From Flavobacterium okayamense (GTDB lineage Bacteria; Bacteroidota; Bacteroidia; Flavobacteriales; Flavobacteriaceae), in assembly GCF_019702945.1 (NCBI RefSeq), contig NZ_AP024749.1, positions 806,001 through 870,000 of the forward strand: a DNA stretch of 64,000 nucleotides, written 5' to 3'. The notes under the pieces are model-generated. The model did not search any database and had not been told where the DNA came from. It saw only the letters and a program-made list of their open reading frames with translations. Positions 14,767 through 23,913 of the stretch are shown here, in pieces. Positions within the stretch are counted from its first letter, which is position 1. The number at the start of each line of letters is the position of its first letter. The position numbers and the translations under genes are program-made.

Positions 14767-15480
14767 ATGATAGAAAAAATTCAACTCAACAACATTTTAT
14801 TTTTAGACATTGAAACCGTTCCGCAATTCGATTCTTATATGGGAATGGATGAAGAAACCAAAAAGCTTTGGGAAAACAAAACTCAATACCAACGTCGCGA
14901 TGAGGTTACCGCTGAAGATTTTTATGAACGAGCAGGAATTTGGGCCGAATTTGGAAAAATCATTTGTATTTCGGTTGGATATTTTACAAACAAAGCAGAC
15001 ATTAGAAATTTTAGAACGACAAGTTTTTGGGGTGAAGAAAAGAAAATATTACAAGATTTTACTAATTTATTAAACCAATATTTTAATGGCGCGGCTCATG
15101 TTTTATGCGGACATAATGCTAAAGAATTTGACATTCCATTTATTGCGCGTCGCATGATTATTCATGGAGTTGCGTTACCTGATAAGTTAAATTTATTTGG
15201 TAAAAAACCTTGGGAAGTTCCACATTTAGATACTTTAGAATTGTGGAAATTTGGCGACTACAAACATTTTACTTCATTACGCTTACTAACAAAAATATTA
15301 GACATTCCATCGCCTAAAGACGATATTGATGGCAGTGAAGTAGCACGAGTATTTTATATTGAAAAGGACATAGATAGAATTATCACCTATTGCGAAAAAG
15401 ATGTTATCGCTGTTGCTCAAATCTTTCTGCGTTTTCGTAGAGATGATATTTTAATCGAAGACGAAATCACGCATGTTTAA
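14767..15480 (+). CDS. 3'-5' exonuclease, PolB-like (ribonuclease H fold)
   Basis: The 237-residue protein has the DEDDy exonuclease motifs: Exo I DIE at 14-16 (FLDIETVPQF), Exo II in CGHNAKEFDIPFIARR, and Exo III in YCEKDVIAVAQIFLRF (Tyr-x-x-x-Asp). There is no polymerase domain, so this is the stand-alone 'predicted PolB-like 3'-5' exonuclease' family. A role in DNA repair or RNA trimming is plausible; the substrate is unknown. Confidence 0.9.
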   Translation: MIEKIQLNNILFLDIETVPQFDSYMGMDEETKKLWENKTQYQRRDEVTAEDFYERAGIWAEFGKIICISVGYFTNKADIRNFRTTSFWGEEKKILQDFTNLLNQYFNGAAHVLCGHNAKEFDIPFIARRMIIHGVALPDKLNLFGKKPWEVPHLDTLELWKFGDYKHFTSLRLLTKILDIPSPKDDIDGSEVARVFYIEKDIDRIITYCEKDVIAVAQIFLRFRRDDILIEDEITHV

Positions 15481-15520
15481 ACATATCTATTTCTTGAATG
15501 TTATAATATGAACTGAACTT

Positions 15521-15544
15521 TGTCAGTTCGAGCGGAGTCGAGAA
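15521..15544 (+). repeat. REP-like repeat, left flank of the GIY-YIG gene
   Basis: A 24-base GC-richer motif, core TTCGAGCGGAGTCGAG, in an AT-rich background. Its inverted copy at 15863-15886 matches in 22 of 24 positions. Confidence 0.85.
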
Positions 15545-15555
15545 CACACAAAAAA

Positions 15556-15891
15556 ATGAAGTTATATTATGTTTATATATTAAAATGTTCAGATGAAATC
15601 TATTATGTTGGTTTTAGATCTAATTTAGAACAACGAGTTATGCAACATAATATAGGAACTGATTCAGATTCATATACATTTAAAAGAAGACCAGTTGAAT
15701 TATTTTGGTATCAAGATTTTGTTGAACCTTATCAAGCTATTTATTTTGAAAAGAAAATAAAAAAATGGAGTAAAGCTAAAAAGGAAGCATTAATAAATGA
15801 TAACTTTGATTTGTTACCTTTGCTTTCAGAGTGTAAAAATGAAACACACTTTAAAAATAAGGCTCTCGACTCCGCTCGACCTGACAAATAA
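15556..15891 (+). CDS. Small GIY-YIG nuclease-domain protein
   Basis: The ATG at 15556 gives 111 residues starting MKLYYVYILKCSDEIYYVGF, the GIY-YIG motif with YVYI at 4-7 and YYVG at 16-19. Conserved features follow: Arg27 in NLEQRV, His32 in MQHN, Glu48 (KRRPVELFW) and Glu64 in YFEKKIKKWSKAKKEALI. The family is stand-alone GIY-YIG proteins similar to the UvrC N-terminal nuclease. The gene lies between inverted repeats: the last residues (ALDSARPD) are encoded by the right repeat, and the frame stays open backward through the left one. This suggests the gene and repeats move or evolve as a unit. No transposase is present. Confidence 0.85.
   Translation: MKLYYVYILKCSDEIYYVGFRSNLEQRVMQHNIGTDSDSYTFKRRPVELFWYQDFVEPYQAIYFEKKIKKWSKAKKEALINDNFDLLPLLSECKNETHFKNKALDSARPDK
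15863..15886 (-). repeat. REP-like repeat, right flank (inverted)
   Basis: Inverted copy of 15521-15544 with two mismatches. It encodes the C-terminal LDSARPD of the GIY-YIG protein. Confidence 0.85.
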
Positions 15892-15911
15892 GTGAAATGA
15901 AAGAGTCTTTG

Positions 15912-15935
15912 TGTCACTTCAAGCGGACTCGAATA
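15912..15935 (+). repeat. Degenerate third copy of the REP-like repeat
   Basis: Same orientation as the left flank, matching in 19 of 24 positions (TTCAAGCGGACTCGA core). It is 25 bases beyond the right repeat. Confidence 0.6.
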
Positions 15936-16010: not shown

Positions 16011-17450
16011 ATGGTTTTAAGCAGATTTTGGTTCGTTATATTCGTTTGTTCTATCACTTTTGTAATTGCAGGATTGTTTACCAATCAGTATTATTCCATC
16101 GATTATGTATTAAATGGTAAACAAGGCGAACCTCTTTTAATAAATGAAAAATACTTAAACGAAATTCCAAAGTTTGTTCAGGATAGTCTAAAAGTTTCAG
16201 AAAATAACGAGTTTGTTTTAAATAAAGTTACTTCTGATGCTGATACTACTTATGTTTACAACAAACAAACGGTAAAAATTTATAGTGGAACTCAAAAAGC
16301 CGATGGTTTATTACCCATGGCAAAAAGTAGTTTACTCGATTTAATTCTTCCGTTAATTGCCTATTTAGCTTTTTTCTGTGGTATTATGGAATTATTGATT
16401 ATTTCTGGGGCTTCCGAAAAATTAGCAGGTTATCTAAGTCCAGCATTTGCTAAGATTTTTCCTTCTATTCCTAAAAATCACGAATCGATTTCATACATGA
16501 CGTTAAATTTTGCGGCCAACTTTTTAGGGTTGGATTCTGCGGCAACCCCATTCGGATTAAAAGCCATGGAAAAACTGCAAGAAATAAATCCAAGTAAAGA
16601 TAAAGCCAGCGATGCGCAAATTATGTTTATGTGTTTGCATGCTGCCGGTTTAACGTTAATTCCAACGTCAATTATTGGTTATCGTGCCGCAGAAAATGCT
16701 GCGAATCCAGCCGATGTAATGTTGCCATGTATTATTACGTCTTTTGTAGGAACAATTGCAGCTTTTATTTTAGTAGGAATTAAACAACGCATCAATTTTA
16801 AAAGTGCTTCGTTATTAGTCGGGTTAATGTCTTTAATTGGAGCAATAATTGGTTTGTTGTTCTATGTAAATACTTTAGATTTAATTGGTAAAAACTATTT
16901 TACGGCAAATTTATCAGGTGTTTTATTATTAGCAATTATCGGATTTACGTTAGTTTTTTCGTTCATAAACGAGAAAAAATTTATTGAAAAGAATACTAAT
17001 TTATTCGACACTTTTGTTGTTGGTGCAAATAACGGATTAAAAACTGGAGCCATGATTTTTCCTTATGTAATGGGAATGTTAGTAGCAATTTCATTGTTTA
17101 GAAACAGTGGTTTATTCGAATTAATCAGTCACGGAATGGCGTTTGTATTTTCACATTTAGGTGTTCACAAAGAAATTATCGATTCGTTACCAGTTGCGAT
17201 GTTACGTCCTTTTGCATCGAGTGGTTCGCGCGGATTCATGATTGATGCGATGCGCGTTTACGGACCCGATTCTTTTGCCGGGCGTTTAAGTTGTATTTTC
17301 CAGTGTAGTGCCGAAACCACATTTTATGTTATTGCGGTTTACTTTGGTTCTGTAAATATTAAAGACACTCGTTACACACTTTGGATGATGTTATTAGTGG
17401 ATTTAATTTGTGTGTTGACTGCAATTTTTGTGGCAAGTTGGTTTTTTTAA
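16011..17450 (+). CDS. SpmA/SpmB-like fusion, nucleoside-recognition (gate) membrane protein
   Basis: The 479-residue polytopic membrane protein contains two 'nucleoside recognition/gate' domains in one chain, corresponding to Bacillus SpmA and SpmB. The first includes SPAFAKIFPSIPKNHESISYMTLNFAANFLGLDSAATPFGLKAMEKLQ; the second includes FIDSLPVAMLRP-like and SGSRGFMIDAMRVYGPDSFAGRLSCIFQCSAETTFYV. Non-sporulating Bacteroidetes keep this fusion; its transport or signalling role is not established. The N-terminal 30-100 region between the first helices is probably periplasmic. Confidence 0.88.
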   Translation: MVLSRFWFVIFVCSITFVIAGLFTNQYYSIDYVLNGKQGEPLLINEKYLNEIPKFVQDSLKVSENNEFVLNKVTSDADTTYVYNKQTVKIYSGTQKADGLLPMAKSSLLDLILPLIAYLAFFCGIMELLIISGASEKLAGYLSPAFAKIFPSIPKNHESISYMTLNFAANFLGLDSAATPFGLKAMEKLQEINPSKDKASDAQIMFMCLHAAGLTLIPTSIIGYRAAENAANPADVMLPCIITSFVGTIAAFILVGIKQRINFKSASLLVGLMSLIGAIIGLLFYVNTLDLIGKNYFTANLSGVLLLAIIGFTLVFSFINEKKFIEKNTNLFDTFVVGANNGLKTGAMIFPYVMGMLVAISLFRNSGLFELISHGMAFVFSHLGVHKEIIDSLPVAMLRPFASSGSRGFMIDAMRVYGPDSFAGRLSCIFQCSAETTFYVIAVYFGSVNIKDTRYTLWMMLLVDLICVLTAIFVASWFF

Positions 17451-23831: not shown

Positions 23832-23859
23832 GTCTAATAATTTGTCAATTAATTAATAA

Positions 23860-23913
23860 TTCTCGATACATTTTTTGTTTCGTAATTCTCTACAAAAAAC
23901 ACTCGAATTGACG
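23860..23913. repeat. Hairpin element with the same ends as the GIY-YIG repeats
   Basis: Begins TTCTCGA and ends CTCGAATTGACG; the reverse complement of the 15521 repeat begins TTCTCGA and ends CTCGAACTGACA. Here 35 bases lie between the ends instead of five, with an inner stem TTTTTTGT / ACAAAAAA. Confidence 0.65.

Follow-up and report, generated by a model that had tools for sequence, protein, structure and literature searches.

Why a small nuclease gene should lie tightly packed between inverted copies of a short repeat is the question raised by a locus of Flavobacterium okayamense, which we analysed within a window of 64,000 nucleotides (bases 806001-870000 of the one-contig, 2.78 Mb genome labelled G000). 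An earlier note on this DNA had proposed a candidate mobile or self-spreading unit, in which a GIY-YIG nuclease may recognise the repeats and stand in for the Y1 transposase of REP/RAYT systems. The gene, identified as an open reading frame with a Pfam match, is located at 15556..15891 on the plus strand (stop included) and encodes 111 residues. A left repeat, referred to here as type A, lies at 15521..15545 (+), and an inverted right copy at 15862..15886 (-); both carry their TGTCA tag outward. The near-identical inverted 24-base repeats that the note placed at 15521 and 15863 are borne out: the arms at 15519-15543 (+) and 15864-15888 (-) are 24/25 complementary (96%), and the 18-mer GTTCGAGCGGAGTCGAGA, with at most 3 mismatches, occurs twice in the 64-kb window versus 0 times in 100 shuffles. 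A third, decayed type A copy, TGTCACTTCAAGCGGACTCGAATA, is indeed visible at 15912..15934 (+), where the core pattern used below misses it. It is also correct that the right repeat encodes the protein's final residues and that the frame is open through the left repeat. This frame spans 15520-15891, from a TTG within the left repeat to a stop just beyond the right one, with ATG 15556 as the likely start codon. Outside the unit, a predicted 3'-5' exonuclease gene (DNA_pol_B_exo2; 14767..15480, +) on the left and a nucleoside-recognition (Gate) transporter-like gene (16011..17450, +) on the right mark the empty site.

Counted genome-wide, as the note had suggested, the core TCGAGCGNAGTCGA gives 31 copies (15 forward and 16 reverse), with 0 for a reversed-pattern control. 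Alignment of 30 of the 31 copies defines a 25-nt element, TGTCA-NN-TCGAGCGNAGTCGAGA-N'N', which spelled out reads TGTCA-NN-TC-GA-GCGGAG-TC-GA-GA-N'N'. Its stem of about 7 pairs consists of NN-TC against GA-N'N', a GA bulge and an inner GA/TC, closed by the 6-nt loop GCGGAG. The tag is TGTC in 28 of the 30 copies (L019 and L027 deviate). In the same alignment, two stem pairs vary on both sides (21 cells versus 5.6, sd 1.7, when shuffled; 0/500 as high). The second stem pair (8-27) is C-G in 16 copies, G-C in 9, A-T in 2, T-A in 2 and unpaired in 1, while the outermost pair (A-T) is formed in only 17/30. Because NN and N'N' vary in a compensated way, the two arm mismatches counted in the note are normal variable stem positions. 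By folding energy, six isolated copies are no better than shuffles, so the hairpin claim rests on covariation, which indicates that the type A stem is conserved as a structure. Covariation is more marked in type C, a longer relative built of TTCGAGTG, a variable stem and GTATCGAGAA: across 65 distinct copies, whose 5' arms come in 54 versions, 367/390 cells of the inner stems are paired in register, versus 198 (sd 9.7) with the arms shuffled. The type C pattern has four matches in the window's genome, and one such repeat lies in the window itself at 23858-23913 (-), where it separates the genes for the two subunits of a predicted CoA-transferase. A search of Rfam returned a single, sub-threshold match within a neighbour gene, and hence no known RNA family.

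In the window protein, the Pfam GIY-YIG domain covers residues 4-76 (E 2.3e-14), and Y7, Y17, G19, R27, H31 and E65 are invariant in an alignment of 40 sequences, which places it in the GIY-YIG superfamily. Its AlphaFold model has a pLDDT of 86.6, with low values in the tail from about residue 91. As modelled, then, the protein is a bare GIY-YIG domain with a repeat-encoded tail predicted at low confidence. The nearest folds to the model are UPF0213 proteins (1zg2, 1ywl) first and Slx1 next, the likeness being that of the catalytic fold; Slx1 is a structure-selective nuclease that cuts branched DNA. Neither NCBIfam nor PHROGs gave a match to a named family, and a protein search of the window's genome found no second close relative of the GIY-YIG protein. 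Another small GIY-YIG gene of that genome (L112 2958-3400, about 1518957-1519400) begins right behind a tRNA-Pro gene and is followed downstream by a repeated tRNA 3' end, as if inserted at the tRNA gene. At three loci (L323, L336, L349), the GIY-YIG frame reads on without a stop into the next, unrelated protein gene.

The association between gene and repeat was examined in a family set of 83 places from 149 Flavobacteriaceae genomes, reaching down to E 2.7e-12 (84 were found, one of which, in G127, belongs to the same-genus set). Some of these genes are broken copies, and one place (L035) covers two near-identical tandem genes and may duplicate L324. The note had asked whether other small GIY-YIG genes share such flanks, and most do: motif A, B1, B2 or C occurs within 250 nt of 69/83 genes, with matching motifs on both sides in 51, compared with 1 (type A), 2 (C) and 0 (B1 and B2) in 90 end windows of family loci. 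Flanking inverted repeats scoring at least 13 are seen in 45/83 family genes versus 6/338 shifted windows, and in 15/19 versus 0/63 in the same-genus set. The 14/83 genes with no repeat motif within 250 nt count against a mobilising role. At the level of whole genomes, the GIY-YIG query matched 102/149 at E <=0.001 and 56 at <=1e-12; repeat A is present in 41/56 genomes with the gene clade versus 26/93 without (odds ratio 7, p 9e-8, a statistic that ignores phylogeny). The main exceptions, also counted against mobilisation, are 10/93 genomes that hold at least 5 A repeats and in which the clade gene was not detected. Two of them, G084 with 31 copies and G080 with 29, could reflect gene loss, another mobiliser or a missed gene.

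The spacing of tag-outward A pairs was recorded for 207 listed copies from seven genomes chosen for holding type A genes. Four contribute complete sets (G000, 31; G148, 29; G085, 44; G077, 54) and three partial ones (G106, 15/17; G002, 11/14, omitting copies alone on a contig; G131, 23/112); G056, with 27 A copies, contributes none. Each of the 8 pairs at 250-500 nt has a GIY-YIG gene inside; the 24 pairs at <=80 nt are all empty dimers. Other pairs within 2 kb, 4 at 81-249 nt and 1 at 501-2000 nt, are likewise gene-free, and one further GIY-YIG gene is located between tandem A copies. The note had named two outcomes that would speak against its proposal, and neither was observed. One was a genome-wide repeat with no bias towards GIY-YIG genes; the repeat is genome-wide and biased, as these 8/8 pairs and the 69/83 flanked genes (at most 3/90 in controls) document. 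The other was repeat-free orthologues at fixed syntenic positions; related genes keep no fixed position, the site being closed in 21/43 genomes of the genus (see below) and related genes being found elsewhere, mostly among repeats again.

The comparison of empty sites proposed in the note was made in 61 genomes of the same genus, including the window's own; apart from the latter, 43 carry both neighbour genes on a single contig. In 21/43 of these the neighbour genes are 33-186 nt apart, versus 530 nt in the window; such a spacing is too short for the gene, and the unit is therefore absent there. The remaining 22/43 have spacings of 259-7026 nt. A match at a different genomic place, in G195, spans window positions 15520-15886, that is, from repeat to repeat, and the two genes flanking that site abut (0-9 nt) in 9/20 regions fetched, which were selected to display closed and filled states and so give no frequency. 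At this junction, G195 and G367 carry arrays of alternating inverted repeats, in which the GIY-YIG gene occupies the position that a short spacer fills in the other dimers; A repeats are found at the junction in two more genomes (L316, L320). One gene junction of the genus (L093, L301, L316, L320, L098) resembles an insertion hot spot: several species have GIY-YIG genes or arrays of repeats there, and in others it is closed. In Azospirillum lipoferum, a GIY-YIG gene of a second subfamily, described below, sits with REPs on both sides between sufB and sufC. Three relatives lack that gene (95.1-96.4% identical over the aligned 67%), and their site contains neither gene nor REP. When precise ends and target-site duplications were sought, the flanks were strongly diverged at the sites compared. 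These comparisons show that related genomes differ in whether they have the unit.

Copies of the repeat are also found inside genes, with 10/30 type A copies having at least 60 open codons on both sides. Six in-frame copies (L002, L005, L008, L011, L021 and L022, about 1480-1530) lie in host genes that resemble kdtA, gltX, leuS, aroA, hisA and pyrD, the names being assigned by reading the translations; the hisA copy is read in frame. Relative to relatives, the pyrD copy corresponds to a net 21-nt insertion (7/7), the kdtA copy to a 21-nt insertion (2/3), and the hisA copy to an 18-19 nt insertion that is missing in 3/5 and present in G160 and G193; aroA with its copy is 15 nt longer than in 2/4 relatives. 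For gltX (3 relatives) and leuS (8), the gene with its copy is no longer than in the relatives and no shorter, which counts against mobilisation. Gene-internal copies without a length change either predate the comparison or replaced sequence.

The type of repeat tracks the protein clade. Types were assigned by simple patterns, each locus being given its commonest motif (L038, L339 and L245 bear two types), and a tree was built from 84 proteins trimmed before their repeat-coded tails, 5/89 rows being excluded as too short. Type C (25 rows) forms one side of a single branch with support 100/89. Over the whole tree the repeat labels require 15 changes versus 51.8 when shuffled (0/200 as low), and 7 once unlabelled rows are excluded; types A, B1, B2, D and E need 2-6 changes each. 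C-terminal signatures, picked post hoc after the data had been seen, fit the repeat type in 75/75 loci where signature and motif are both present (29 C, 37 A or B1, 9 B2), with 7 further loci having a signature but no motif and 20 having no signature. Counting both subfamilies, 18 genomes hold at least two GIY-YIG loci with different repeat types, a comparison in which the genome background is held constant. This type-for-type match between protein clade and repeat makes it likely that the GIY-YIG protein recognises the repeat.

The scope is wider than the earlier note had guessed, extending to other bacterial groups and to a second GIY-YIG subfamily. In a scan of named genomes, mostly Sphingomonadales plus Chloroflexota and others, flanking inverted repeats scoring at least 15 occur at 65 of the best 80 of 556 loci versus 0/273 shifted windows; at a score of at least 13, the figures for the same best 80 are 69 and 2/273. 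The pairing of gene and repeat thus recurs in Sphingomonadales and some Chloroflexota. The second subfamily (about 25-40% identical) was intended as a negative control of 20 loci, of which 11 were found to have repeats of their own, versus 0/87 shifted windows. Hence it became a second positive set, with shifted windows as the only control. From 33 second-subfamily records, 14 were examined, chosen for variety, and 10 of these loci have inverted repeats scoring at least 13 versus 2/56 shifted windows. By eye, a CGTC tag, an AT-first stem of 8-9 bp, a 4-5 nt loop and a CCA-like tail are seen in A. lipoferum, Aeromonas, Shinella HZN7, Neorhizobium and Rhizobium CIAT894. The Photobacterium and Rhizobium K1/93 loci have no flanking inverted repeat, those of Planktothrix and Spirosoma have weak ones only, and the flanks inspected at a Cupriavidus GIY-YIG locus contain no such repeats.

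REP/RAYT and REPIN systems, reportedly described by Nunvar in 2010 and by Bertels and Rainey in 2011, combine REPs that bear a GTAG tag with a transposase of the Y1 HUH type. The present system resembles them in its short tagged hairpins, dispersed copies and inverted dimers, and in having a single small nuclease gene enclosed by its own repeats in inverted orientation, with repeat type tied to nuclease clade. It differs in the enzyme (GIY-YIG versus HUH) and in the tag (TGTC or CGTC versus GTAG). No match to the Y1 HUH transposase (PF01797) was found in the window's genome, while control genomes including E. coli gave matches, and mobilisation by a RAYT was rejected for this genome on that ground. 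PF01797 is also without a match in 7/11 other genomes searched, so that 4/12 overall have matches, and in these a RAYT may act as mobiliser. The system works like REP/RAYT and, differing in enzyme and tag, is not a member of it. The note's idea of a REP-like system with GIY-YIG in place of the Y1 transposase gains support from the gene-repeat bias, the type matching and the lack of a Y1 match.

A second comparison is with the CGTC-tagged REPs, which make up one of the two large classes of REP and, according to the 2013 paper by Di Nocera, De Gregorio and Rocco, apparently have no dedicated transposase (PMC3733652). By the rule given there, the tag is CGTC, TGTC or CCTC at one end, the first and second stem positions are complementary AT, the stem is 8-9 bp and the loop 4-5 nt. 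Window type A agrees with this description in its TGTC tag, the hairpin, the HH dimers and the occurrence of some copies within genes; it departs from it in its bulged stem of about 7 pairs, its loop of 6 nt and a second stem pair that is not fixed as AT. By this description, type A is a related new type beside the published CGTC families. The repeats next to the second subfamily fit the description, if not at all 14 loci, and by eye the L244 repeat nearly does so. Plasmid records matched by the second-subfamily query include A. lipoferum, Novosphingobium aromaticivorans, Sinorhizobium meliloti and Neisseria, all of which the same paper names as carriers of CGTC repeats (PMC3733652). As cited there, RPE-4 and RPE-6 of Rickettsia also have copies in frame within protein genes, with sequences unlike type A (PMC3733652). 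Our search of the open-access literature, excluding preprints and most subscription papers, by titles, abstract starts and term counts found no paper that connects REP or CGTC repeats with nucleases of the GIY-YIG type. A nuclease tied to the spread of its own gene is also a feature of GIY-YIG homing endonucleases and Penelope-like elements; here, by comparison, the gene-bearing units are 330-360 nt and have neither intron nor reverse transcriptase.

Given a gene between dispersed hairpin repeats, and related genes of many other bacteria between their own hairpin types, we see in this family of enzymes a strong candidate for the partner that a large class of bacterial repeats has been missing. 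We consider it probable that the locus is the autonomous member of a REP family, arranged as tag-hairpin, GIY-YIG gene and inverted hairpin-tag, with the GIY-YIG nuclease as the partner enzyme. The nuclease would recognise the TGTC tag together with the hairpin of its own type when the DNA is single-stranded or extruded (at a replication fork or in a cruciform) and would cleave at or beside the tag; the dimer might then be re-integrated or copied by host repair, with or without the gene, and gene-free dimers could spread in trans. We infer these steps of recognition, cutting and copying. With an unrelated and presumably hydrolytic nuclease, re-joining would be a task of the host, or an activity so far unknown for the GIY-YIG fold. 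We know of no GIY-YIG enzyme that joins DNA, a point against mobilisation, and to our knowledge no enzyme of this fold has been described that spreads DNA in the absence of both an intron and a reverse transcriptase. We lean, somewhat less firmly, towards the general proposition that small stand-alone GIY-YIG nucleases are dedicated mobilising enzymes of CGTC/TGTC-tagged REPs across several phyla, forming a second REP-nuclease system that would be independent of RAYT, diversified in tag and hairpin specificity by clade, and free of an HUH covalent intermediate.

The most serious rival, which we regard as rather unlikely, is a homing-type parasite: the GIY-YIG gene would cut existing REP dimers and be copied in by repair, while the REPs spread otherwise. 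GIY-YIG homing genes are known. The gene in G195 and G367 does take the place of a short spacer, and ten genomes keep at least 5 A repeats with the clade gene undetected; Y1 matches are present in 4/12 genomes. However, the window's genome and 7/11 others have no Y1 match and would need some other spreader, the presence of repeat A tracks the gene clade, and in the A. lipoferum relatives the site has neither gene nor REP. The data thus favour mobilisation of the REPs by the nuclease over such a parasite, short of proof, and the recognition step is common to both.

Less probable still is a housekeeping or repair nuclease that trims REP hairpins or cruciforms, the repeats regulating or protecting its gene with no role in mobility. 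Hairpins can stall replication, and the model does resemble the structure-selective Slx1, after UPF0213; such a function fits poorly with the patchy presence of the gene (102/149 or 56 genomes, depending on the E value), its presence or absence at given sites, and the existence of several loci in one genome that differ in repeat type. That the flanking repeats are coincidental, or mere terminators or local signals, we regard as hardly credible: many copies do lie away from GIY-YIG genes, a third of those aligned within open frames, but type match and pair spacing speak against it. Chance flanking repeats were rejected, as shifted windows of the same loci give values near zero.

Taken together, our results name a specific and widespread candidate partner for the CGTC-tagged REPs, which in 2013 were said apparently to lack a dedicated transposase (PMC3733652). 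If the mobilising role is true, this would be a second, independent partnership between REPs and a nuclease. It would also give a likely role to many anonymous small GIY-YIG genes, and provide naturally matched nuclease-hairpin pairs for studies of hairpin recognition.
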